Virus record (IMG/VR): IMGVR_UViG_3300048835_000834
Coordinates: 1 to 29,663 of that record
DNA length: 29,663 nucleotides
DNA from: a virus
Reading direction: 5' to 3' (one strand)
The translations under genes were made by a program, and so were the position numbers. The notes under the pieces were generated by a model, which worked only from the letters and a program-made list of their open reading frames with translations, had not been told where the DNA came from and did not search any database. Below, in pieces: positions 285-29,623 of this stretch (its first letter is position 1; each line of letters begins with the position of its first letter).

Positions 285-1361
285 TTAGGCTGCGATCTCT
301 TTTTGATTGCTTTTCGGATTCGATTTTTGCTTAACCGCGCTTCTGGGCATCTGTGATAGGCATTCGATAAACTGCTTTCCAAAGAGTAGACCTATCAATG
401 GGGGAACCGCATTACCGATTTGCTCATACTTGGACTTAATCGTTCTACCATAAAACACAAAATCATCTGGAAAGCTTTGGAAGCGCGCTATTTCTCGTAC
501 TGTAAAGATCCTGTCTTTCCAGGGATGCCAAACGGCAGCATTCTCAGGCTTAAAAGCTGCAGTAACAGTACTCATTATCGACTGTCTTGAGCATCTTCTA
601 TAAATAACGGGTGATCCATATTCCTTCATGTTAGCGCGTATTTTCTTCAATCTATCTGGTAGGTGCTGAGTAGCAATGTCCTTCCAGCTACCACCCTCTG
701 GTACAAATTTGCCAAGTTTAAGCGCCTGGGGATTTAGACGCATTATTTCAGTTTGATTTGGTGTGTCCTTAGACAAGCCTCTCAGCGTTGCTTTTATTGA
801 TAGATCTACCGGGTCGATCATTTTTGGAAACACATACTCAAGGTGATTCTTGTTTTTCGTTCCAACCAGGATCACCCTCGTCCTTATCTGAGGGACGCCG
901 AAGTGACTAAAATTGAGCAGCTTATACGTAGTGTGATACCCCATATCCCGGAGAGATTCTATTATGACGTCAATTAGCAACCGATCCTCGTATTTTGCGG
1001 AAAGTAGCCCACGAACATTTTCGATCATCACTATCTTTGGCGACAATTCTCTACAAAATTTTAAAGTAGTCAAAAAATGAAGCCCTCGGTAGTCATCTAC
1101 ACCTTTTCGATTTCCCGCACTAGAGAATGGTTGACAGGGAAATCCGGAGACCAAAAGGTCGAGGCCTTTTACTTTTGGGACTTCGATGACAGATATATCA
1201 GCCTGAATAATGTCACCAATGTTTCTTCGATACGTCTCACATGCGTCTGGATTTGAATCACATGCCCATACAGAATTGAATCCTGCCTTTATCAAACCAA
1301 GGTCGAGGCCTCCACATCCGGAGTACATGCTAATAAAGGTAGGGCTTTTTCGGATCGACAT
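285..1361 (-). CDS. DNA (cytosine-5) methyltransferase
   Basis: A 358-residue C5-cytosine DNA methyltransferase that transfers a methyl group from S-adenosylmethionine to cytosine in a specific DNA sequence. The family motifs appear in order: motif I SGCGGLDLGL (about 14-23, cofactor binding), motif IV PCQPFS with catalytic Cys76, motif VI ENV (114-116), motif VIII QIRTR (158-162), a variable target-recognition stretch (about 170-290), motif IX FTVREIARFQ and motif X GNAVPP (316-321). The length is normal for the family and no key residue is missing. The start is supported by AGGAGG a few bases upstream. It is the last gene of the minus-strand cargo cassette and is separated from the nuclease gene by 606 bp, so it may have its own promoter. 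Likely role: protecting self DNA from the neighbouring nuclease/helicase. An orphan phage methylase is the alternative. The target sequence cannot be read. Confidence 0.95.
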   Translation of the reverse strand: MSIRKSPTFISMYSGCGGLDLGLIKAGFNSVWACDSNPDACETYRRNIGDIIQADISVIEVPKVKGLDLLVSGFPCQPFSSAGNRKGVDDYRGLHFLTTLKFCRELSPKIVMIENVRGLLSAKYEDRLLIDVIIESLRDMGYHTTYKLLNFSHFGVPQIRTRVILVGTKNKNHLEYVFPKMIDPVDLSIKATLRGLSKDTPNQTEIMRLNPQALKLGKFVPEGGSWKDIATQHLPDRLKKIRANMKEYGSPVIYRRCSRQSIMSTVTAAFKPENAAVWHPWKDRIFTVREIARFQSFPDDFVFYGRTIKSKYEQIGNAVPPLIGLLFGKQFIECLSQMPRSAVKQKSNPKSNQKEIAA

Positions 1362-1967
1362 TATTAATCCCTCCTGCAGGTGAAGATTCTAAGTTGTCGC
1401 AATATTTCGATAGCCCATTTTCTTTAAAGGGCTGCTATCGTAGCGTCGATGCCGTCTGCCTTCGGTCGTATCTGGATTCTAGGTTCGGTGCTATGAATGT
1501 TTACTTGAGGTAGATATCGGCTCAGGAATACACGTCTTTAGTGGATAAGGTAGGCGAATTACGCCCGAACACGAGGTTTTTGGTTTGTATAAACCTGATT
1601 TCGTTGAATCTTTGGACTCTATTTGTTGCATTCTCATGTTCATTTATATTTTAACAGATCTCTCTATAGCATCGGGGCTTTCAGCCATCTTTTTCCATGG
1701 CAGCGTCTTCATCGCAACGTCATGTTTCTGATTGCCGCAGTCAACAAGCTGACGAAAAATTAGCAGTTTCTTTTGTTCATCCGTTGACTTGCGCTGCCGT
1801 TTCACACCCGTGGAGGACAGTGTTTTACTCATCCCTAGGAAGCCTTCCCCAGGTAAGCTTCGAGGCATAGCTTTAGAAATTGAGGTCAAACCTGAAAGTG
1901 GGATTAGGGAAAGGTTCTTACATTTAGCAGAAAAGTATCAAGTGATGCATGGCCGATCGCTTTGCGT
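1362..1967. other. 606-bp gap between methyltransferase and nuclease genes
   Basis: No convincing gene lies here. A hairpin at 1408-1440 pairs CGATAGCCC with GGG and CTATCG (3-nt bulge, 12-nt loop). It ends about 47 bp before the methyltransferase start codon, where it would sit in that gene's leader RNA. The minus strand carries an 81-codon open frame at 1644-1889 (62 codons if started at 1832) with a lysine-rich N-terminus and only a weak AAGG element. The plus strand carries overlapping short frames. I would not call any of these a gene without homologues. The gap may hold a separate methyltransferase promoter. Confidence 0.4.
1408..1440 (-). promoter_or_regulatory. leader hairpin upstream of the methyltransferase gene
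   Basis: CGATAGCCC (1408-1416) can pair with GGG (1429-1431) and CTATCG (1435-1440) around a 12-nt AT-rich loop. It lies 47-79 bp before the methyltransferase start on the coding side, where an attenuator or operator would fit. No U-tract follows it in the direction of transcription, so a simple terminator is less likely. Confidence 0.3.
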
Positions 1968-3158
1968 TTAAAATAAGCCGAGAACGTTTGTTGGATCTTG
2001 GATTCGATACGGCCACTGTTTACTATTGCGGTAGATTAATAGAGTCACTCCATTCAAAAACAGAAAGTCTCTCATCTCATTTTCCAGACAGGGATTTCCA
2101 CATTCTTCCACTAGAACGCATTTATGCATCACAGTTTTATCTTGTTTTTTTAAAAGAAAATCATAATATGATATCTGTATCATGCCTTTGCAACACTGCT
2201 CAAAAAAATTATCTCGTGTAGTGCTTTTTATTTCCAAGATTGTGTGCCCATTCCCCACTGAAATAGCAAGGTCGATACTCGACGAACGAAGTGGGGTGAT
2301 GCCCTTGCTTCGTAAGAAGTCCACAATCTCTCTGAGTATAGATTGGTGTCTTGCCTCTGCTTGCTCAGTCTTTTGAAGAATTGAGTTCCAATAGCCATTG
2401 TCTTCATTTGTCTTTTTGATGTATCGTCGTGCCGCAATATTATGTTCAGTGACTTCTTTGAAGTGCCCGTCGAATCTCCTATTTGGAGACACTGAGAAGC
2501 CGTTTTGTGGGCTGAAATTTGTCTTTCTTTCTAGCTCAAATATTGTATGTTCCTTATATAATCCATCAAAACAAAAACTGAGCCACCAAAGGTAGGGTTC
2601 ATCACAGTAAGCTCCGGTTGATGGCGTAGTGAGTTGCGATGCTACAAACGTCCTCTTAAACTTTTCAAGCGCAAGAGGGAATGGAGTTGATGGGGTTATT
2701 CCCAAAATATCACAGCGTTGTTTGAGCCTTTTTTTGTCCGGTGGGCCAATAGACTTTTCTTGTGCCTGTTGTGCCCAGTTTTTAAGGTATAAAGACATCT
2801 GTTCAGTAGCAATAGCAAGTGTTTTTCCTGATTGGATCTGGACGCTGGAGGTTAAACGCTGCCAAAGAATGCCTTCTAAACTACCTGGATGAGTGAAATA
2901 GGTTGACCGCAATAAATCAAAACTCAGTAGATACTGACCGGATCCGGGCCCAGAAAGAAGTTCAGAAATTAACTCTGGATAAAATGCTCCAAAGAGCGTT
3001 GAGTAAGTCTTATTTCTGACTATCACCCAAATTCGGGAGTCGTAAAGATCCTCAATCCTGATCGGCATCACCTCAGGCGGGACTAAAAGCTCGAATGTAA
3101 ACGGAGCCCTTAACTCAGGTAAATTCTCCGATGGAATGTGCAAAACAAACTCAGACAT
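1968..3158 (-). CDS. PD-(D/E)XK nuclease-domain protein, probable restriction component
   Basis: A 396-residue protein whose C-terminal third carries a PD-(D/E)XK endonuclease signature: Asp296 in SIDLAIS and, 13 residues on, LEIKS with Glu309 and Lys311. These are the acidic-acidic-lysine metal-binding residues of this fold. The helix before Asp296 (RHQSILREIVDFLRSKG) also fits the fold. The first 270 residues resemble no family I can name and may recognise DNA or a partner. Its ATG overlaps the end of the SNF2 helicase gene by 8 bp (ATGTCTGA), so the two are probably translationally coupled and act together. Expected role: DNA cleavage in a multi-subunit restriction-like system, with the downstream methyltransferase giving self-protection. 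The fold call is motif-based and the function is inferred from context. Confidence 0.8.
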   Translation of the reverse strand: MSEFVLHIPSENLPELRAPFTFELLVPPEVMPIRIEDLYDSRIWVIVRNKTYSTLFGAFYPELISELLSGPGSGQYLLSFDLLRSTYFTHPGSLEGILWQRLTSSVQIQSGKTLAIATEQMSLYLKNWAQQAQEKSIGPPDKKRLKQRCDILGITPSTPFPLALEKFKRTFVASQLTTPSTGAYCDEPYLWWLSFCFDGLYKEHTIFELERKTNFSPQNGFSVSPNRRFDGHFKEVTEHNIAARRYIKKTNEDNGYWNSILQKTEQAEARHQSILREIVDFLRSKGITPLRSSSIDLAISVGNGHTILEIKSTTRDNFFEQCCKGMIQISYYDFLLKKQDKTVMHKCVLVEECGNPCLENEMRDFLFLNGVTLLIYRNSKQWPYRIQDPTNVLGLF

Positions 3159-4848
3159 TTTCGAGCTCTGAGATAGCTTCGTCTAGGCTTGAAGGGAAAT
3201 TGACTTTATCGTTGAGCAACTCATGCTGGTTCGTTACTTTGTGGCCTAATCGTGCAACTTCACTTTCCTCAATCGTTCCTTCTGCCACAAGGAGCGTAAC
3301 TTCAACTTTGTCTGCATTCTGCCCAATTCGGTGAATGCGGTCGATGGACTGTAAGAAGTGAGCTGCTTGGTTTGAATATGAAAGATAAATAGAATGCGCC
3401 GCAGCATGAAGTGTTATTCCTGCCCCTGCCGCTGCGGGATTGCCGACAAAAATTTTGATATTAGGATTGGATTGGAACTCTTTGACTGCACTTTTTCTGA
3501 CACTTGTGGAGACGCCCCCATCGATTCGGACAATCCCAAGGTGTTCGTATCTAGTGCATATATCATTGATGCTTTCGGTGTAGAATGACCATATCACAAC
3601 TTTTTCATTATTCTTCTCTACAATCTTATGGATAAGCGAATCAAGGGCTAAATACTTGGCGGGTTCATCGGTAAAAAGAGGGTCGATCAGTGTTGGTCTT
3701 AAGCAGATTTGGAGTAACGCGGCCCGTTTTTGGAAGTATGACGAAAGTATTCTCTTAAATGAGCGGTTGTCCATTTGCTTTAATTCTAAAACTAGGGACC
3801 TTCTAACATTCTCATAAAGTTCCCGTTGCTTCCTGCCTAATTTCACTTTATGAATAGTAAACAATTTAGGTGGTAGTTCTGGCAATACTTCCGACTTTAG
3901 GCGTCTGATTAAAACTCCACGGGATTCAATGCGATTGGTTATTGCCTCTTTAATTTTTTCATCATGTTGTGGAACGCTGAAACCAGCAAAAGTATAGCCA
4001 TCATCCGCAATATCAAACTGACTAATGATATCTAGCGGTGAGTTTGGTGCAGGTGTGCCGCAGAGTACCAATCCAAATTTGCAATATCTTCTTATCTCGC
4101 GAATGGCAACAGAGCGTATAGCGCGGTGATTTTTGACGTAGAATGACTCATCGACTACGAGAATAGTATGCTTTCCTCGGAGAGTTCCTTTGATAGTTGC
4201 GAGATGAGACTGAACAGATTCAAAATTCAAACAATATATCTGGCTAGCAGAATTCAAAAGTTTATGTCGTTCTTGAAATGATCCCTCAACTGTTGTGACA
4301 GAATACTTTTTCGGAAGAAAGCGATCTATTTCCTTTGGCCATTCGTGGAGCATACTTTTAGGAGACAAAATTATCGCTAGGTCAACGCTCCCTTGAGCAA
4401 ACATTTGATCCAACAAAGAAATCGCAGTGATGGTCTTTCCAGCCCCTTGCTCATCGAAAAGACATGCACCTAAAAGTCCATTTGTTAGCAACGCCTTGAC
4501 AGCTTTTGCTTGGTAAGGCTTAAGTAGTGAGCCCCAGTAGGTATCAGTTGCCTCATAATTGTCGTCTGACAGGGCGGTTTCTGCGGCGAGTTTGCCATTA
4601 AGATGAGCTTTTTCCTTGTGAAGACGTTCTTTAAATATCTCGTCTAAATTCTCGCTCTGAAAGTGTCCACTCTTCTGTAGATGCTCTATTACTAATGTCG
4701 CACAATCTAGCGGGACAGAGAAGCCGGACGATGATTCATGACTTATGTTGGCTTCAGTCAATTCCTTGATAATATCAGCTTTAAGGCGAAGCAATGCAAC
4801 CCCATGGCCTTCAATACAAATGCGATTGTTTGCAATTTTAACTCGCAT
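3151..4848 (-). CDS. SNF2-family DNA helicase/translocase
   Basis: A 565-residue superfamily 2 ATPase of the SNF2 type. Visible motifs: KPYQAKAV before motif I; Walker A DEQGAGKT (132-139); motif II DESF (233-236) followed by YVKN; motif III GTPAPN (264-269); motif IV region VVIWSFY; motif V GNPAAAGAGITLHAA; motif VI QSIDRIHRIGQ (500-510), diagnostic of SNF2 proteins. The first 105 residues are outside the helicase core and unassigned. SNF2 enzymes track along double-stranded DNA using ATP rather than separating strands; in defence systems they commonly scan or drive DNA for a nuclease. AGGA lies 5-6 nt before the ATG. It is 20 bp after the ParB-like gene and overlaps the nuclease gene, so it is in the middle of an operon. 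Confidence 0.92.
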   Translation of the reverse strand: MRVKIANNRICIEGHGVALLRLKADIIKELTEANISHESSSGFSVPLDCATLVIEHLQKSGHFQSENLDEIFKERLHKEKAHLNGKLAAETALSDDNYEATDTYWGSLLKPYQAKAVKALLTNGLLGACLFDEQGAGKTITAISLLDQMFAQGSVDLAIILSPKSMLHEWPKEIDRFLPKKYSVTTVEGSFQERHKLLNSASQIYCLNFESVQSHLATIKGTLRGKHTILVVDESFYVKNHRAIRSVAIREIRRYCKFGLVLCGTPAPNSPLDIISQFDIADDGYTFAGFSVPQHDEKIKEAITNRIESRGVLIRRLKSEVLPELPPKLFTIHKVKLGRKQRELYENVRRSLVLELKQMDNRSFKRILSSYFQKRAALLQICLRPTLIDPLFTDEPAKYLALDSLIHKIVEKNNEKVVIWSFYTESINDICTRYEHLGIVRIDGGVSTSVRKSAVKEFQSNPNIKIFVGNPAAAGAGITLHAAAHSIYLSYSNQAAHFLQSIDRIHRIGQNADKVEVTLLVAEGTIEESEVARLGHKVTNQHELLNDKVNFPSSLDEAISELENV

Positions 4849-4868
4849 ATTTCCTGCTTATAGCATAA

Positions 4869-5990
4869 TCATGGCTGAATGGTGGATTTCCACATATCTG
4901 TGATCAATTTTATCGCGCCTTGTAGTTTGTTAATGTCTTCCTGGGAGAGGCTCTTTATGTCTATGGCTTGAATTGACTGTAGATACTCAATGAATTGATT
5001 TATTGTTTCGCGGGCTTCAGATTCGCCTTTGAGAATTCGCTTATGATAATCGAGAGAGGCCTTGGCGTCTTTAGCAGCTGTAGATTCTTTGCTAGTAATA
5101 ATTGATCGTATTTTTGGGTGTTTCCACGCCTCGTATGCGATACGGACCTCTGGAAAGCTTGCAAATTTATCTTCGTGAATCCACCTGAAAAACTGAAATT
5201 TGAATTCAGCATCGCTCAAGAGACTTTCATAGAACGACTTTTGAGCTTCGTTAAAGAACTGATAATTTCGAGAAGCAATAGACTCTGCTTGGTGCTCAGC
5301 TAAGCCAAGCCCTCCGCCATATTCGTCCTCATTGTCTACTGGGTCAGTCGCAAACGTGATGAAATCATCAATAATTTTTATGATTTTAAACGTTTCCTTA
5401 ACTTTGCTTCTAGTCCATCCATACTTATCTGCTATCTCCTTTTCAGTTAGACCTTTTTCTTTGTCCAACCTAATGTATGTCGCTTTAACGAAGTCTGGCC
5501 ATTCGATCTTCAGAGATGGTTGGAAGTTTTCTTCAACCAAAACGAGCTCTTCGTCTACTGAAGTAGAGTCTGTGGTCAAGACGTATGCAGGGAGTACCTC
5601 GAATTCACGCCTTTTTGGATCGTTGAGCGGGATGGTTTCAAGGAGTAGTTTCAGCGCGAAGAATCGCCTATTCCCATCGAGAAGTTGGCCCGCACTCGAT
5701 ATGATTATCGGTTCACGAAGGCCTCTTTTTAAAATGTCATCTCTAAGAGCTGCGAGGTGAATAGAAGGCTCGCTTTTCATTATTTCGAATACTTCTTCTT
5801 GTGTAAGATCCCGGTCACCTACGTTCAACTTGCGTTCTTGAGCTGCCAATTGAATGCGTGGATTTTGCACCCAGCCACATACGTTTTCAATATGTACTTT
5901 GCCCATCCAAAGCATAAGTTGGCGACCCCCGAAAGAACGCTGCTGAATGGAAGGGTCTGGCTTGCTTTCCAAAATTTCGGGGCGTTGCAT
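4869..5990 (-). CDS. ParB/sulfiredoxin-fold DNA-binding protein
   Basis: A 373-residue protein with a ParB-like N-terminal domain: HLAALRDDILKRGLREPIII followed by the phosphate/nucleotide-binding GNRR motif (106-109) and FFALKLL. A helix-turn-helix follows at about 180-202 (LTEKEIADKYGWTRSKVKET), the usual ParB order. The remaining 170 residues are mainly helical and unassigned. In this cassette a plasmid-segregation role is unlikely because no ParA-type ATPase accompanies it. ParB-fold proteins also occur as nuclease, CTP-binding or targeting components in defence loci such as Dnd and Dpd, which is the likelier setting. A GAGAGA element precedes the ATG. Spacing is 47 bp after the upstream gene and 20 bp before the helicase gene. 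The domain call is good; the biochemical activity is unknown. Confidence 0.85.
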   Translation of the reverse strand: MQRPEILESKPDPSIQQRSFGGRQLMLWMGKVHIENVCGWVQNPRIQLAAQERKLNVGDRDLTQEEVFEIMKSEPSIHLAALRDDILKRGLREPIIISSAGQLLDGNRRFFALKLLLETIPLNDPKRREFEVLPAYVLTTDSTSVDEELVLVEENFQPSLKIEWPDFVKATYIRLDKEKGLTEKEIADKYGWTRSKVKETFKIIKIIDDFITFATDPVDNEDEYGGGLGLAEHQAESIASRNYQFFNEAQKSFYESLLSDAEFKFQFFRWIHEDKFASFPEVRIAYEAWKHPKIRSIITSKESTAAKDAKASLDYHKRILKGESEARETINQFIEYLQSIQAIDIKSLSQEDINKLQGAIKLITDMWKSTIQP

Positions 5991-6037
5991 GGTTTTTCTC
6001 TCGGTTTAAGTAGGAAACGAAATAGTGTGCCACTTTC

Positions 6038-6910
6038 TCACGATGTCTTTGGTATTTTTTCTTCGGCTATTAATTCCAACTCACTTAGTCGAGACCGAAG
6101 TCGATCAATTTCTAGTCTCAGATTCGCGTTTTCAGTTCGCAAGTTCTTCAATTCTTCATTAGATTCAATTGAATGGTTGTCGAAATCAGGGTCTATTTCG
6201 CTTACTCGTGCAAATGAATGTCCGAATATTTCGATGTTTCCTTTAAAAAAACGCTTTTCTACGTCTAGCCGCTGATGGACAAAATCACGAATGTCATTTG
6301 AAAAGCAACTTGATGCAATAGTTTTTAGTGTGTTGGAAATATTGGGGTCAGGGCATGCTATTGGTATTGCACGAAAGAGGAATAGCATAAGGTCTGTCCA
6401 CGGAGTGTTTGACCTGCGGTCGTCAAGATATCTTAAAATATTGCTTTTCCAGTCGGGATGAATACTTAGTCCCCATCGATGTCCGTAAATCTCAACACCC
6501 ACAAGTAATAAAGGAGCTGGTCGACGAGGATAGCTCTGGGGATTTGCTCCCCGGCTAGATGTAGTTAGAATAGTTGTTAGAAAATTTGCCTTAATTTTTT
6601 CATCTGGACTTCGTTCTGAAGATATTACTGATCCGAGATTGGCAACCATTGTGTTTGGTGAATCGAGATCAGATACAAAGCCGCTATAAATACTTTCGAA
6701 ATTTCTGCGATTTTCTCTACTGAATTGAACGTTGGGATTAAGACAGACGCTGTCGCAACTTAGAGTTTTAAGGAGCCTAGCTAACGTGAAAAAGTACATC
6801 AAAGCAGAAGTACGTTCTTGACCACGCTTAGTACCTGGATCAGTCTCCTTAAGAGCCAAAAATGCTTTCTTTACTAGTGCTGCATTCAGGTATATTGCGT
6901 CTTTGGACAT
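6038..6910 (-). CDS. unrecognised protein with C-terminal coiled coil, first gene of the cargo cassette
   Basis: I do not recognise this 290-residue protein. The frame can extend to an ATG at 6991 (317 residues), but that ATG has no ribosome-binding site. The ATG at 6910 has AGAGGA about 10 nt upstream and begins MSKDAIYLNAALVKKAF, so I prefer it. The last 45 residues (EELKNLRTENANLRLEIDRL onward) form heptads of Leu/Ile typical of a coiled coil, suggesting oligomerisation or binding to a partner. No catalytic motif, membrane segment or signal peptide is visible. It heads the minus-strand cassette, 47 bp before the ParB-like gene, so it probably belongs to the same system as a structural or sensing subunit. 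It is strongly AT-rich compared with the virion genes. Confidence 0.7.
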   Translation of the reverse strand: MSKDAIYLNAALVKKAFLALKETDPGTKRGQERTSALMYFFTLARLLKTLSCDSVCLNPNVQFSRENRRNFESIYSGFVSDLDSPNTMVANLGSVISSERSPDEKIKANFLTTILTTSSRGANPQSYPRRPAPLLLVGVEIYGHRWGLSIHPDWKSNILRYLDDRRSNTPWTDLMLFLFRAIPIACPDPNISNTLKTIASSCFSNDIRDFVHQRLDVEKRFFKGNIEIFGHSFARVSEIDPDFDNHSIESNEELKNLRTENANLRLEIDRLRSRLSELELIAEEKIPKTS

Positions 6911-7175
6911 GCTATTCCAATCCTCTTTGAACCATAACTTTCGGCTGTATTCAGAGGAATTTGAGGAAATAATGTTAACGCTTAAATACATAAATAAAAT
7001 TAATTAGTTATGTTTTGGTGGGTGCTTCGAACATTGGCAAATTTTTCACTGTCTAGAGTGATCGGCTTTTGATTCGTACATACTATAAGAACAGAGGATG
7101 CCTATTCGAAGAATTTGTTGAAATCCCTAAATAGACATGACTTGCTCGCGGGTCCTTTGTGCAATTAAATCAAGT

Positions 7176-11754: not shown

Positions 11755-12672
11755 TTAGTAAGAGTAGCGCACTGAGTGCATTAACGTTCCCGAGCTGATT
11801 TCGTCCAACGTGGAAGCGCGTCCTTCACTATCAAAGGTGAAGGTAATTGAACCTGTCACCGAAGCTGGACTTCCGCTCAGTACCTGAGCGGATGTGATAA
11901 ATTCAGTTGATTCGTCGTAGGTGAATTTCAGAGTTCTTATATGTATGGACCCGTGAGCATACTCAGCGAATTCCGTGATGCGATTGCCCGCTGATGCATC
12001 GAGGGAGATTCGAATCTGGTCCATTATTTGATTATCCTTGTCGCGTGATTCCACTGTTGTCAACAAACCGCTGTCGCCGTAAGTCAGGGTAATGCCTCCA
12101 CCAGTACCATCGTCCGTGGCGGACTGGATATCTGCACCACTTAGGCGGCCTGAGTTGTCGAATTTGAGTGTTCGGGTCGTTGTATTGCCAAAGTAGGTCT
12201 TGGAATAAGATGTCAATGCGCCTTGCTCGTCAAAAAACGGTGTGATCACTGTATCGGAAGCCCCGCTTAACGTTTCTCTGATTTCGGCCAGCCGATCTCC
12301 GTCGTATGTGTGGGTTATGGTGTTGGTCGTAGAGCTGGATGTAATTGTTTCCAGAGCGATACGGTTTTGTTCGTCATATGTATATGCAACAGTATAGGGG
12401 GACGTATTTCCGCTATAAGATTTGCTCTTCGCTAAGTATTTTTGTGCAATCTTTTCGAAGAAGTCCCGATCCACAGAGATGAAGTTGTCGTATAGGTATG
12501 CCACAAGATAGCCCTGTTTCCTGGGATCTCCTTCGGTAACGGGGGAGTCGGAATTTCCACCGCCGCCACCGCCACTGCTACCGCAAGCGCCCAAGAAAAA
12601 CGCCATCGCAAGCGCTGCAACCAGCATCCATAAGTTCGAATTCAGCGTTTGATTCCTAGAAATGGTGCTCAT
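11755..12672 (-). CDS. lipoprotein with YD/RHS-like beta repeats, probable lysogenic-conversion gene
   Basis: A 305-residue exported lipoprotein. The N-terminus has a hydrophobic segment ending in the lipobox LGAC with Cys30 as lipidation site, followed by a flexible SSGGGGGGNS linker. The rest is a run of beta-strand pairs such as YTYDEQNRIALETI, HTYDGDRLAEI, LKFDNSGRLSGA, FTYDESTEF and FTFDSEGRAS, which look like YD/RHS-type or DUF4595-like repeats, giving a surface-exposed beta structure. AGGAG stands 6 nt before the ATG. It is on the strand opposite to the head operon and is inserted between portal and protease genes, so it would be transcribed separately, likely from the prophage in the lysogen. 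Role unknown: surface alteration or superinfection exclusion are reasonable guesses. Confidence 0.85.
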   Translation of the reverse strand: MSTISRNQTLNSNLWMLVAALAMAFFLGACGSSGGGGGGNSDSPVTEGDPRKQGYLVAYLYDNFISVDRDFFEKIAQKYLAKSKSYSGNTSPYTVAYTYDEQNRIALETITSSSTTNTITHTYDGDRLAEIRETLSGASDTVITPFFDEQGALTSYSKTYFGNTTTRTLKFDNSGRLSGADIQSATDDGTGGGITLTYGDSGLLTTVESRDKDNQIMDQIRISLDASAGNRITEFAEYAHGSIHIRTLKFTYDESTEFITSAQVLSGSPASVTGSITFTFDSEGRASTLDEISSGTLMHSVRYSY

Positions 12673-19244: not shown

Positions 19245-19645
19245 TTGAGCCAGTTTTCCGAAAGCTATATCCGGCGTTCGATCCGGGACCTATCGAGAAC
19301 ATCCGGCTTCGCGCGGACCCGGAGATCAGGGAAGCCATCCTCTGGGAATACAGCCTGGAGCTGCTTTTGCCATACGCCGTCGATCCCAAAAGGCTCGATG
19401 AGGAGATCCAGGAATTCATGCGGCTTCATGGAACTCTCTTTGCGATCCGGACGGCCATGCGCTGGGTCGGATTTGGGAGCATCAGGTTCATTCCGCTTTC
19501 CCACTTTGAATATGAAGTCGATCCCGGGCGCATTCCATCCGAACGGGAAATCAGCGCAATCCAGGCTGCACTTTCGGTGTCCGTGCAGGCCCGCGGCAAA
19601 CTTAAACGAATCTTTCATGGATTATTCGAGGTCAAATATGAGTGA
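19241..19645 (+). CDS. tail protein I (P2 gpI-like)
   Basis: A 134-residue protein following gpJ, as in P2 (gpI 176 aa). It contains IRLRADPEIREAILWEYSLE, LLPYAVDPKRLDEEIQEFMR and LHGTLFAIRTAMRWVGF, consistent with the tail protein I family that binds the baseplate and receives tail fibres. It is shorter than P2 gpI. In P2 the fibre genes H and G would follow; here the sheath gene follows at once, overlapping by 8 bp. Confidence 0.85.
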   Translation: MIEPVFRKLYPAFDPGPIENIRLRADPEIREAILWEYSLELLLPYAVDPKRLDEEIQEFMRLHGTLFAIRTAMRWVGFGSIRFIPLSHFEYEVDPGRIPSEREISAIQAALSVSVQARGKLKRIFHGLFEVKYE

Positions 19646-20117
19646 CGCACTCTATGTGCATGGAATCATCATCAGCCAGGCGACAGGCGAAGCCCAGGAG
19701 ATCCGTTCACCATCGACCAGCGTTGTCGGAATTGTGGGAACGGCGCCAGCGAGCAGGGAGCTGACGGTCAATTTTCCTGCGGCGTTCCTCGGGGAAAAGA
19801 CCGCTCTTGATGCCATTTATCCGGCAGGGGCAACGGGCGACAAGGGAACGCTTTACGAGTCCGTGATTGGGGTTCTGGAGCAGGGTCTCGCGCGCGTAGT
19901 CCTTGTGAAGTCCGCATCCAATTCCCAGGCGGACATTTTAAAAGCCATCGATGCTTTGCCGATGGCGAAATCAGTGACGGGCTACAAACCAAAGATTCTG
20001 ATTGCACCCGGGTTTGGCAGCGAAGTCACGCAGAATACGGTGAATCCGGCACCGACACCCAGCCCTGCACCAGACCCGACGCCGGAAAACAATCGAAACA
20101 GACCCCGGGGGACTTGA
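19638..20117 (+). CDS. tail sheath protein, N-terminal half (P2 gpFI-like)
   Basis: A 159-residue N-terminal part of a contractile tail sheath subunit: VHGIIISQATGEAQEIRSPS with TSVVGIVGTAP, then FPAAFLGEKTALDAIYPAGA, and the family signature KPKILIAPGF. After that point the sequence turns into a proline-rich run (NPAPTPSPAPDPTPENN) and stops at TGA 20115-20117. The C-terminal half starts only one codon later in the same frame. Together the halves give about 411 residues, close to P2 gpFI (396). The sheath surrounds the tube and contracts on infection. The break may be a real two-gene sheath, a nonsense mutation or readthrough. Confidence 0.85.
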   Translation: MSDALYVHGIIISQATGEAQEIRSPSTSVVGIVGTAPASRELTVNFPAAFLGEKTALDAIYPAGATGDKGTLYESVIGVLEQGLARVVLVKSASNSQADILKAIDALPMAKSVTGYKPKILIAPGFGSEVTQNTVNPAPTPSPAPDPTPENNRNRPRGT

Positions 20118-20120
20118 TCC

Positions 20121-20879
20121 ATGGCTGATACCGCAAATCCAATTGTGACAAACCTCCTATCCGCTGCGCGGCGGCTTAAGGCCATTGCGATTGTTGATGG
20201 CCCGGAGGATGAAAAGGAGCTGAAAAAGTTCCGTGACCTCAATGGCAACGCCCGCCTCTATATCGTCTCGCCAAAGGTCAAGATCTCGGCTGGTGACAAA
20301 ATCACTACAGTCCCGGCCAGTTCCCATGTGGCTGGGGTTTTTGCCAGGATCAACTTCTGGCAGTCGCCATCGAATCAGCCGCTTTATGGAATTCTCGGGA
20401 CGAATGTGGGGATTTCCTTTGAGATGGATGATCCGGAATCCACAGCCCAGCAGTACAACGCGATGCAGGTTGCAACCCTTATCCGCGAGGATGGAGGCTT
20501 CAGGGTCTGGGGCGCCAAAGGCACAGGAAGCCCGGGGGATTCCAAGACCAGCCAGATACAAAAGGTCCGCATTGCCGATGCCATCGAGGAGGCCATTGCC
20601 GCCTCAACCCGCTGGGCCGTGGCGGCGGGAATCAATCGCGATTTCATAGGAGCGGTTGAAAGAAAGGTAAATAACTTCTTTTCGGATCTGATCCGCGAGG
20701 GGGCCATCGTCGGCGGCGAGTGCAAGGGCGATAGGGAGCGCAATACAGCCGAGGCTCTGGCCCGCGGCGATGTCTACTGGAAGTACAGCTTCACTCCAAC
20801 TGCCGTGGCCGAGACGCTTCACTTTGAAGGATTCAACACTAACAAGTATTACGAAAATTTTGGGGAAGGAGTCCAATGA
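20121..20879 (+). CDS. tail sheath protein, C-terminal half (P2 gpFI-like)
   Basis: A 252-residue frame, in the same phase as the N-terminal half, starting at ATG 20121 right after TGA-TCC. It continues the sheath sequence: AARRLKAIAIVDGPEDEKEL, then SSHVAGVFARIN, the WQSPSNQPLYGILG segment, and the C-terminal domain with NNFFSDLIREGAIVGGECKG and YWKYSFTPTAVAETLHFEGF, which form the inner ring contacts. GGGGGA about 8 nt before the ATG could serve as ribosome-binding site, so this half can be made on its own. The stop overlaps the collagen-like gene by ATGA. Confidence 0.87.
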   Translation: MADTANPIVTNLLSAARRLKAIAIVDGPEDEKELKKFRDLNGNARLYIVSPKVKISAGDKITTVPASSHVAGVFARINFWQSPSNQPLYGILGTNVGISFEMDDPESTAQQYNAMQVATLIREDGGFRVWGAKGTGSPGDSKTSQIQKVRIADAIEEAIAASTRWAVAAGINRDFIGAVERKVNNFFSDLIREGAIVGGECKGDRERNTAEALARGDVYWKYSFTPTAVAETLHFEGFNTNKYYENFGEGVQ

Positions 20880-22045
20880 ATTCATTTCGTCTGATTTTAT
20901 TCGCAGCCATTTTCTTTCTAGGTTTTGCCGCCTTCGCGCAGCAAACCGCGCCGCTGTTTTCCGACAACGACAGCCCAACATTCGAGAACACCTATCTTAT
21001 CGACAATATCGGCACCAACAGCAAGGGAGCGGATCTTACCCTTCGGATCCACAAGACGGCTCCGTTTGGAGAATGCAAAGACAAGGTGAATTGCCCTGCA
21101 TCAGTGATTGTTTCCGGGGCGACGGGCAATGTGAACATGCCTGTTGACGTGAATGTCCGCTCACTCCATGTCGGCAAAAATCCGGTGATTGATGCCACAG
21201 GAAAATGGGTAGGACCTCCCACGGGACTTGCTGGTCCCAAGGGTGACAAAGGCGATCCCGGCGTCCCGGGTCCAAAAGGGGATAAGGGTGAAGCGGGACC
21301 TCAGGGGCCTCATGGTGAGTCTGGCTTTGATGGTTCCGTGGGACCAGCCGGCCCCAAAGGTGACAAGGGTGATCGCGGCACTCAAGGCCCTCCTGGCGAA
21401 AAAGGCGAAGCGGGTCCTCCTGGTCTCCGTGGCGATCGTGGTCCAGAAGGTGCCATGGGACCAGCCGGCCCCATGGGTGATCCCGGAAAGTCAGGCGAAG
21501 GCTGCTGGTATGACAATGTGAATCAAAGGATCAACTGCGGGGAAACCTGGATTGAGATCGCAAACCTCAAAGGCCCGAAAGGTGACTCCGGGCCCGCAGG
21601 ACTGAAAGGTGACAAAGGTGATCCGGGAAAACCTGGTGAAGGCTGCTGGTATGACGATCAAGCGCAAAGGATCAATTGTGCGGGCGGCACCTGGATTCCG
21701 ATCGCACTTCTGAGGGGGGCGCAGGGTGAAAGAGGTCCCATGGGGCTTACGGGACCAAAGGGCAATACAGGTCCTGCCGGTCCTCAGGGGCCAAAGGGGA
21801 CTGTTGGAAGCTGCAGAAGCGTTTCTGCTGAGGTTTCCATTTTCCAGATGGCAGAGGTTTCCGCTTCCTGCGAGAGCGGCGAGATTCTCATCGGTGGCGG
21901 CTGCCATATAACTGGGGGGACTGGAGTGCAGCTTCAGACGTCGGCTCCCATCATTGAAGAGCTTACCTACGCCTGTGAATGGATCTGGAAATCGGGAGCC
22001 AGTCCTCTGGTCAAGGGTACTGCTGTTGCCACCTGCTGCAAATGA
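20876..22045 (+). CDS. exported collagen-like (Gly-X-Y) protein
   Basis: A 389-residue protein with a classical signal peptide (MNSFRLILFAAIFFLGFAAF, cut probably after AFA at 21), a 95-residue N-terminal domain with two cysteines, then three Gly-X-Y blocks (about 117-209, 234-255, 281-317) rich in GPKGDKGD/GPPGEKG. The blocks are separated by two copies of a GCWYDxxxQRINC module (about 210 and 256). The cysteine-rich C-terminal domain ends ATCCK. Expected to form an exported trimeric collagen-like fibre held by disulfides. GGAG precedes the start and the ATG overlaps the sheath stop (ATGA), so it is translated with the tail genes. No fibre gene is present nearby, so a host-contact or virion-decorating role is possible, but an export signal is odd for a virion part made in the cytoplasm. 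Confidence 0.88.
   Translation: MNSFRLILFAAIFFLGFAAFAQQTAPLFSDNDSPTFENTYLIDNIGTNSKGADLTLRIHKTAPFGECKDKVNCPASVIVSGATGNVNMPVDVNVRSLHVGKNPVIDATGKWVGPPTGLAGPKGDKGDPGVPGPKGDKGEAGPQGPHGESGFDGSVGPAGPKGDKGDRGTQGPPGEKGEAGPPGLRGDRGPEGAMGPAGPMGDPGKSGEGCWYDNVNQRINCGETWIEIANLKGPKGDSGPAGLKGDKGDPGKPGEGCWYDDQAQRINCAGGTWIPIALLRGAQGERGPMGLTGPKGNTGPAGPQGPKGTVGSCRSVSAEVSIFQMAEVSASCESGEILIGGGCHITGGTGVQLQTSAPIIEELTYACEWIWKSGASPLVKGTAVATCCK
21505..21690 (+). repeat. two copies of a cysteine-bearing module in the collagen-like gene
   Basis: The sequence encoding GCWYDNVNQRINC starts at about 21505 and a diverged copy encoding GCWYDDQAQRINC at about 21643, each followed by a short hydrophobic strand (TWIEIANL, TWIPIALL). 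They interrupt the Gly-X-Y repeats. Two cysteines per copy suggest an intramodule disulfide, consistent with an exported protein. Silent and replacement differences show an old duplication rather than an assembly artefact. Confidence 0.7.
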
Positions 22046-22054
22046 GGAGTGGAA

Positions 22055-22576
22055 ATGTCCGTTAAGTTTCCTTTGTATCTCAAGAATTTCAATTTGATCC
22101 TCGGGCCAACGGATTATGCGGGCGTCGCGGAGGAGGTTACTTTTCCAAAAATTGCCTACAAAACCGAGGAGATTTTGAACGCCGGCATGGCGATGCCGAT
22201 CAAGATGCCGACCGTGCTCGAAGCGATGGACGTGACTTTCAAAATGTCCGAGCAGACCTTTGAAGGTTTTGTTCTCGCCGGCGCTCCGACCGCAGGGCTT
22301 GTTGATGCCGTTGTTTACGGGCACATGCAGAATGCACTCGGCGCGACATCGGAGCTAATCTATGCGATGCGCGGGAGCATTCTCAAGATCGATCCAGGAT
22401 CGGCAAAAAATGGTGATCTCAAGGCGGGCACACAGACGCTGGAGATGAATCTTATGTCGCTTCTCGTGACGCGCGACAACATTCCTATCTTTACAGTCGA
22501 TGCACAAAACGGTGTCGTCAAACACGGACCTCTTGATCACTTTGAGTCGGCACGAAAGAACCTGAAACTTGGTTAA
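22055..22576 (+). CDS. major tail tube protein (P2 gpFII-like)
   Basis: A 173-residue protein almost the length of P2 gpFII (172 aa). It starts MSVKFPLYLKNFNLILGPTD and includes the family-like VAEEVTFPKIAYKTEEILNA, GMAMPIKMPTVLEAMDVTFK and ALGATSELIYAMRG segments. It forms the inner tube surrounded by the sheath. The ATG at 22055 is chosen over GTG 22049 because GAGGAG lies at a good distance. In P2 it directly follows FI; here the collagen-like gene stands between them. Confidence 0.92.
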   Translation: MSVKFPLYLKNFNLILGPTDYAGVAEEVTFPKIAYKTEEILNAGMAMPIKMPTVLEAMDVTFKMSEQTFEGFVLAGAPTAGLVDAVVYGHMQNALGATSELIYAMRGSILKIDPGSAKNGDLKAGTQTLEMNLMSLLVTRDNIPIFTVDAQNGVVKHGPLDHFESARKNLKLG

Positions 22577-28079: not shown

Positions 28080-28346
28080 ATGATAGTCAAAAAGAAATCG
28101 ACGTTAATGGTATCCATTGTTAAAAAGAAAGGACTAGGTTCAGAAGACTCTGCGGCGGTCAGCCACGCGGAGAAGATCTTTGACAATTGGATAACGAAAA
28201 AATTGCTGGCTTCGCACCTCGGTATGTCACTTAGCTTTGTGAATAAGTACATGAAGGAAGGACTGCCGTATAGGCGGCGAGGTAGAGCAGTGAGATTTCG
28301 AGTGATCGAAGTTGAAGAATGGCTTCAACGGAGATTCATTCAATGA
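28080..28346 (+). CDS. excisionase-like HTH protein
   Basis: An 88-residue basic protein. Residues about 40-85 form an AlpA/excisionase-type winged helix-turn-helix: WITKKLLASHLGMSLSFVNK, YMKEGLPYRRRGRAVRF and VIEVEEWLQRR. Such proteins bend DNA at att sites and direct the integrase toward excision. The AT-rich gene overlaps the integrase start by ATGA, so the two are coupled. The first 35 residues are lysine-rich and unassigned; a start at the later ATG (28107) is possible. Confidence 0.78.
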   Translation: MIVKKKSTLMVSIVKKKGLGSEDSAAVSHAEKIFDNWITKKLLASHLGMSLSFVNKYMKEGLPYRRRGRAVRFRVIEVEEWLQRRFIQ

Positions 28347-29623
28347 AAAAGTTCAATCCTAAAGTTTATCAGGGCAAAAATCGCGTATATCCTCCCGTTC
28401 CAGGAGCCCCAAATGTTCGAAAAATCCTTATCTGGGATGAAGATAAGAAGGAATATAGGCTACCCGCGAGAGGTAAATTATATCTTGCTCGCCGATATGA
28501 GATTGATAGCAGGGGCAAGAAATTTAGGAAGACTGAATACTTTGAAAGCTTGGAGTCTGCCCGTAATTGGCAGTCATTCATCAGCTTGGACGCTGGTGAA
28601 GTTCAATCATTCGAGTCTTTAGTCAAAAAAAGTGATGCTCCAACTTTTCAGGAAATTTTTCTGGAGTGGAAAAAGCGCAAATTTTCCAGTTTGCGAAAAT
28701 CCAGTTGGGTGGCGTATGAGAATCTGGTCAATCGACATCTTCAGATGTTTCGTGATTACCCGATCAATACAATCTCTCCGAAAGATATTGATGCATGGCT
28801 TGCTGACAGAAAATTGAACTTGGTGAACTCTACTCAAGCCAAGACACGGAATAGCTTCAAGAATGAACTTGTCGTGCTCAGCATCATTTTGGAGTATTAC
28901 GCGGAGTATTACGAGGAGGATGCGACATTCCGCTTTCCGATTAAGAAACGTCATTGGAAAGATGCAAAATTGAATATTTCGCGTCCACCAAGACAAAAAG
29001 ATCTCACGGAAACAGAATTCCAACTCTTTCTGTCTCAACTTGTGACATTGACTGACGGGGTTGTTCTTTCTGACTTGGCGACGTGCCAGTATTATCAGGC
29101 TTTGAGGATTTCGGAAATTGCTGCGCTGGATTGGTCTAATGTCGTTTTTAACTGGTCAAATCCGAAAGAATCGAAATTGATGATTAGTCAGCACGCTGTT
29201 TATACGGTCGAGAAAGGTGCTATTCCCAAAGTCGAACCTGGATTTAAGAATTCGGATTCGTGTGGCGGGATAAAGGAGTTGCCAATGTTTCCTCCTACAT
29301 TCAACGTCTTGAAGAGATTGCATGGAGATGGAGGTAAAAGCGGCCTGGTTTTTCCCACTAGCACTGGAGATTTTTTTAGATACCATACCGTCTATGACAG
29401 ATATAATAAGGCGTTCGAGAGGGCTGGTCTGCCATACAAGGCCACGCATGTCTTACGCCATGGATGGACCAGACAAATCTTTGACTCGACCAACGGTGAT
29501 TATGGCATAGCCGGACAGCTGCTCGGCAATACGTCACGAATTTCTATCGAAACCTATGCACAGCGAAAGAAAAGCGCATTAGCAACTGTGGCGCACGATA
29601 GGTGGAATGTAGTAGGAAATTAG
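28343..29623 (+). CDS. int: tyrosine-type site-specific integrase
   Basis: About 426 residues with tyrosine recombinase residues visible: Arg255 in YYQALRISEIAALDW, His369 and Arg372 with His373 in THVLRHGWTRQIFD, and nucleophile Tyr405 in ISIETYAQR. The N-terminal part carries a SAM-like core-binding domain (TFQEIFLEWKKRKF, then VAYENLVNRHLQMFR). The enzyme would insert the phage into the host chromosome by recombining attP and attB. The start is ATG 28343 with GGAG 9 nt upstream and an ATGA overlap with the excisionase; ATG 28319 is a longer alternative. The prophage end is expected just beyond its stop. Confidence 0.93.
   Translation: MKKFNPKVYQGKNRVYPPVPGAPNVRKILIWDEDKKEYRLPARGKLYLARRYEIDSRGKKFRKTEYFESLESARNWQSFISLDAGEVQSFESLVKKSDAPTFQEIFLEWKKRKFSSLRKSSWVAYENLVNRHLQMFRDYPINTISPKDIDAWLADRKLNLVNSTQAKTRNSFKNELVVLSIILEYYAEYYEEDATFRFPIKKRHWKDAKLNISRPPRQKDLTETEFQLFLSQLVTLTDGVVLSDLATCQYYQALRISEIAALDWSNVVFNWSNPKESKLMISQHAVYTVEKGAIPKVEPGFKNSDSCGGIKELPMFPPTFNVLKRLHGDGGKSGLVFPTSTGDFFRYHTVYDRYNKAFERAGLPYKATHVLRHGWTRQIFDSTNGDYGIAGQLLGNTSRISIETYAQRKKSALATVAHDRWNVVGN

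Follow-up and report, generated by a model that had tools for sequence, protein, structure and literature searches.

A phage's tail fibres determine the cells it is able to enter. Such fibres are taken to be made in the cytoplasm, where the tails of tailed phages assemble. H and G are the usual fibre genes of P2-type tail operons. Phage proteins are also exported during infection, as seen for the lytic conversion lipoprotein (Llp) of T5, which is a small phage-encoded lipoprotein. Collagen-like tail fibres are known from prophages of Escherichia coli O157:H7, where EPclA and EPclB have a Gly-X-Y stalk between N- and C-terminal domains and attach via the phage-fibre N domain PF08400; a signal peptide is not part of the described architecture (PMC3368898). 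The mosaic adhesive trimer (MAT) fibres of Bdellovibrio are cellular proteins with a conserved beta-rich domain behind a signal peptide, beta-helical shafts and variable tips, some of them ending in S74 domains (PMC10769870). A tailed-phage fibre with a signal peptide could not be found in the literature searched (mostly non-subscription journals). To our knowledge, no tailed phage adds a Sec-exported fibre to its particle.

The window (the whole stretch of DNA analysed, a 29.7-kb IMG/VR record) covers in full the head and tail module of a P2-like contractile phage and has an integrase at the right end. The P2 tail gene order V-W-J-I ... FI-FII-E-T-U-X-D is conserved in the tail operons of its clade. 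An open reading frame at exactly 20876-22045 (+ strand, 389 aa), here called COL, encodes a collagen-like protein with a predicted signal peptide of the form MNSF-R-LILFAAIFFLGFA-AFA, followed by QQ. The features of the locus are:

19638..20117, + strand: N-terminal half of the tail sheath with a Pro-rich tail (split sheath, context)
20121..20879, + strand: C-terminal half of the tail sheath (Pfam Phage_sheath_1/1C), translationally coupled to COL
20866..20871, + strand: ribosome-binding site AAGGAG (sequence)
20876..22045, + strand: COL, putative exported collagen-like fibre gene (ORF, Pfam, family comparison)
20876..20938, + strand: predicted Sec-type signal peptide, residues 1-21 (n-region Arg, hydrophobic core, AFA before and QQ after the cleavage site)
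20939..21223, + strand: conserved N-domain, residues 22-116 (95 aa), with conserved Cys 67 and 73 (identity, dN/dS)
21224..21502, + strand: collagen block 1, 31 Gly-X-Y triplets, from residue 117 (Pfam, triplet count)
21503..21571, + strand: Cys module 1 (CWYDNVNQRINC...), residue 210 (sequence)
21572..21643, + strand: collagen block 2, 8 triplets, from residue 233 (triplet count)
21644..21715, + strand: Cys module 2 (CWYDDQAQRINC...), residue 257 (sequence)
21716..21814, + strand: collagen block 3, 11 triplets, from residue 281 (triplet count)
21803..22042, + strand: C-terminal six-Cys tip, fast-diverging and apparently exchanged between phages
22055..22576, + strand: tail tube FII (PF04985), with ATG at 22055 where the ORF list has GTG 22049

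The initial annotation had described three Gly-X-Y blocks, Cys modules and a Cys-rich end, and these were recovered as runs of 31, 8 and 11 triplets, two modules and the six-Cys tip. The Pfam Collagen family (PF01391) matches with E 5e-23, and mature COL has 12 Cys residues. The ATG of COL (20876) overlaps the upstream TGA (20877-20879) in the sequence ATGA (20876-20879), and this 4-nt overlap is kept in close relatives. The reported overlap with the sheath gene is thus exact, but what this gene encodes is just the C-terminal half of a sheath made from two genes. The placement between sheath (FI) and tube (FII) was borne out by the Pfam sheath match upstream and PF04985 downstream, and the tube ATG lies 9 nt past the stop of COL. 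No promoter-like site on the + strand could be identified in COL or just upstream of it. The absence of the usual fibre genes also held, as no H/G-like gene is found in the tail module of the window and comparison of the larger contigs gave no other fibre-like gene common to the clade. A wrong start masking a shorter cytoplasmic form could be ruled out, since translation from the next Met, residue 88, would begin within the domain that is conserved best. Modelled as a monomer in AlphaFold, the N-domain gave an uninformative structure with a mean pLDDT of 48.

Searches of 50,697 annotated phage records, Pfam, PHROGs and PDB sequences gave no match to the N-domain, and neither Pfam nor PHROGs showed a virion-attachment N-domain such as PF08400, even with E values as high as 10 admitted. 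Neither the N-domain nor the tip has a PHROG match. PDB sequence matches to the tip were antibodies with E 0.08 or worse and were rejected as chance. The N-domain and the tip were used as separate queries; tblastn with full-length COL was uninformative, because low-complexity filtering may mask collagen. Scans of genome contigs with the N-domain and with the sheath C-half gave no relatives, and no tRNA was found on the contigs searched. A relatedness to Oligoflexus/Bdellovibrio, suggested by GC content and cargo, is only a hunch that we do not claim.

COL shares with EPclA and EPclB a phage-encoded Gly-X-Y stalk, a likely trimeric state and a likely receptor-binding role, but differs from them by its signal peptide, an unrelated N-domain, Cys modules in the stalk and a Cys-rich tip (PMC3368898). 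The resemblance to MAT fibres is one of layout only (signal peptide, conserved domain, shaft and interchangeable tips), whereas COL is encoded in a phage tail operon, has a collagen shaft and no S74 match, and gave no PDB sequence match for its N-domain. COL lies in the same kind of tail operon as P2 H and G and may fill their role, but it has no sequence relation to them, occupies slots between FI and FII or after D, is predicted to be exported, and a chaperone gene was not found. From T5 Llp it differs by having no lipobox, by its collagen stalk and by its place in a late tail operon. By the tests made, COL would look like a blend of collagen phage fibres and MAT fibres, being a member of neither.

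Scanning IMG/VR with the COL N-domain gave 22 contigs, and in all 22 of these closer-clade loci COL lies directly behind the sheath C-half gene, with the tube gene next wherever the contig extends. The longer ones continue after COL with tube, tape measure, gpU, gpX and gpD in the same order. A second scan with the sheath C-half gave 17 further, more distant tail operons. Three of these (L148, L163 and L165) have COL in the sheath/tube slot and a fourth (L149) ends inside that slot; other distant operons have sheath and tube adjacent and a COL family gene directly after gpD. Scanning with the N-domain type found after gpD brought the number of such contigs to ten in total, and the whole family to about 36 IMG/VR contigs, an ecologically thin sample because nearly all of them come from a few IMG metagenome numbers and one genome record. 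In the cultured Jilinvirus phages ep3 and PT1, the nearest by sheath similarity, the tube gene is coupled directly to the sheath gene and nothing intervenes.

We define the COL family by a signal peptide, a two-Cys N-domain, collagen with Cys modules, a Cys-rich tip and a tail-operon position, and the window fits this description; one copy (L095a) is without a stalk module. Stalk length and module number vary across the family. No contig without COL was found among the fetched contigs spanning both slots, though absence is rarely provable because IMG/VR contigs are fragments; five sheath-bearing contigs (L153, L155, L156, L158 and L162) are too short for the after-gpD site to be assessed. The initial annotation had named absence from close relatives as what would refute it, and COL turned out to be present in every relative that could be judged. 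A stray cargo gene is ruled out by the same presence, and COL is, as far as gene content tells, a core tail-operon gene of the clade. The second operon slot goes beyond the initial annotation, as do the tandem copies, the tip exchange and the even Cys numbers described below.

Homology between the two slot groups extends along the entire N-domain (hhalign E 3e-15; single-sequence E down to 2e-12). Tandem COL copies with differing tips were found in L095 (second copy behind the tube), L165 (in the sheath/tube slot) and L185 (two after gpD). Neither the N-domain nor the tip could be found elsewhere on the fetched contigs. In two distant contigs (L148:6742 and L163:6742) the COL frame starts at ATA, not ATG; a GGAG precedes it and no alternative start is usable. 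A 61-aa COL remnant, in which the signal peptide is fused to the tip end, precedes an intact-looking copy in L149 (4221-4406) and may be a trace of recombination between COL copies.

Export was assessed by a crude signal-peptide rule that asks for a positive n-region, an 11-residue core with mean Kyte-Doolittle hydrophobicity of at least 2 and small residues at -3 and -1. The rule is satisfied by 17 of 18 COL family members, as against none of the 58 further collagen-like phage proteins retrieved alongside them, which supports the clear signal peptide originally described; the 18th member misses narrowly (1.91 against the cut-off of 2.0). Within the window only COL and a lipoprotein satisfy it. 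Members found after gpD have the same n-region, core and -3/-1 features. Between distant members the signal sequence falls to 30-50% identity, yet its hydrophobicity and cleavage motif are retained. All 24 COL proteins examined have an even number of Cys residues beyond residue 24 (8, 10, 12, 14, 16 or 20), although these are not 24 independent observations because the sequences share ancestry. The sheath halves, tube, tape measure, gpI and gpU have 0-1 Cys each.

The N-domain is under strong constraint, with a dN/dS of ∼0.03 for most comparisons to the window (0.03-0.09 when every pair is counted), similar to sheath and tube. Its clade-wide identity is 66-80%, against 39-64% for sheath and tube. 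Tips, in contrast, are only 30-40% identical even where the sheaths are 88-92% identical. Between L089 (sheath/tube slot) and L166 (after gpD) the N-domains share 30% identity and the tips 84%, and for the window and L171 the figures are 26% and 58%. The tip of L008 is 95% identical to that of the window and 69% to that of L003, whereas the L008 sheath is 98% identical to the L003 sheath. Judged from these identities, tips are swapped between phages, including across operon slots.

The ATGA overlap and the ribosome-binding site suggest that ribosomes finishing the sheath C-half gene would start COL. Its conserved signal features and the even Cys numbers point to export across the inner membrane. 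Outside the cytoplasm, as the domain content suggests, three chains could zip into a collagen stalk, and disulfides could close the N-domain, the Cys modules and the tip. The contrasting constraint is consistent with an N-domain that docks on a constant partner and an exchangeable tip that binds a variable surface ligand. Leaving its final location aside, we consider it likely that COL is an exported, late-made recognition fibre. The sequence fits alike all three roles offered in the initial annotation, namely a secreted adhesin made late, a coat binding released particles and a lysogen surface fibre, although the last is weakened (see below). The constant partner might be the phage particle itself, met at lysis, with COL serving for adsorption where P2 uses gpH/gpG; the particle is favoured because COL accompanies tail genes in either slot, no other fibre candidate is present, and the evolution of COL resembles that of a receptor-binding protein. 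The full chain, a Sec-exported trimeric collagen-stalked recognition fibre docking on the phage particle, is plausible at somewhat less than even chances; against it stand the assembly of phage tails in the cytoplasm and the lack of a recognisable virion-attachment module in the N-domain. We hold more tentatively that COL is an adsorption fibre exported via Sec, folded and cross-linked in the oxidising envelope and attached to the finished particle at lysis.

The same evidence of export, Cys content and late-operon position would fit a protein that stays on the envelope of the dying host, blocking the phage's own receptor against superinfection and loss of progeny on debris, in a role analogous to that of T5 Llp. 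This reading needs no new assembly route; the conserved N-domain could be an envelope anchor, and the tips would track receptor changes. Such a shield should be swapped together with the receptor-binding protein, yet no other variable fibre-like protein is common to the clade, and tandem copies with different tips fit a set of fibres at least as well. Neither a lipobox (in a scan of the family N-termini) nor a transmembrane anchor after the signal (in the sequence) was found, and the gene lies within the tail operon, not among early genes. We regard retention on the envelope as possible but rather doubtful, and as a close rival to docking on the virion.

Alternatively, COL could be an ordinary cytoplasmic tail fibre whose hydrophobic N-terminus only resembles a signal peptide and whose disulfides form after lysis. 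The tail-operon slot, the collagen stalk and the exchangeable tip are typical of phage fibres, and the best PHROG matches of COL are tail fibre families, through the Gly-X-Y stretch only. This is improbable, however, given the lack of such an N-terminus in the 58 comparison proteins and the persistence of its n-region, core and small -3/-1 residues across members ∼25% identical, while its sequence drifts as signal peptides do. All members carry a predicted signal peptide, in both slots, despite N-domain identities between the slots of ∼25-30%, in keeping with the recognition-fibre reading. We give equally little credence to a surface adhesin of the lysogen or phage-plasmid, acting as a host fitness factor. 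These elements carry many exported cargo proteins, and the layout is comparable to that of MAT fibres, which likewise have a conserved beta-rich domain behind the signal and variable tips (PMC10769870). But COL is a core late-operon gene, unlike accessory cargo, and its N-domain and tip are seen nowhere else on the fetched contigs; the embedding in the late tail operon (4-nt overlap, tube ATG 9 nt on) and the lack of a promoter-like site weaken this option.

If particle attachment is true, COL would represent a two-compartment route of tail assembly, which is not known for tailed phages. With its secretion signal, even Cys numbers and swapped tips, COL would either break the rule of cytoplasmic assembly or be a conserved late envelope factor diversified like a receptor-binding protein. 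The family also supplies short, naturally modular collagen-tip constructs.

The sheath of the clade is encoded by two genes, at 19638-20117 and 20121-20879 in the window and also in L003-L012, L089-L098 and L148-L165. The split falls at one loop: a low-complexity tail, often rich in Pro, closes the N-half, and the C-half begins again where the ep3/PT1 sheath has an insertion of roughly 85 residues. At least three forms of the junction were seen (TGA-NNN-ATG in frame, TAA-NNNN-ATG in a different frame and an 8-nt overlap), and sequencing error or decay is therefore unlikely. One-piece sheaths of 388-389 aa are found in the more distant L152, L157 and L162, and the ep3/PT1 sheath is also unsplit. 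A two-chain contractile sheath is known from TssB/TssC of the type VI secretion system (PMC9230969).

The slot after gpD contains excisionase/integrase genes in the window (28080-29623), L082 and L083, and ParA/ParB-like partition genes in L087, L088, L091, L094 and L098; lysogeny in this clade seems to alternate between an integrated and a plasmid-like form. Five genes on the minus strand of the window (285-6991) encode a cytosine methylase (PADLOC MTase_II), a protein without PADLOC hit, a SNF2 helicase (ZorD/DpdE-like), a ParB-like protein and one unknown, and this block looks like a defence or restriction island. The lipoprotein gene of the window (11755-12672, - strand) lies on the opposite strand between portal and protease, and different exported genes are seen in this region elsewhere (e.g., L106:9955-11057). 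Four tandem genes in L100 (15505-18833) encode short exported proteins, two of which weakly match the tail fibre family phrog_11393; they may be another exported fibre-like set, within the cargo of one contig. Finally, the gpV-like spike of L009 (4325-4912) is only 45% identical to that of the window, while the neighbouring gpW, gpJ and gpI are 85-87% identical.
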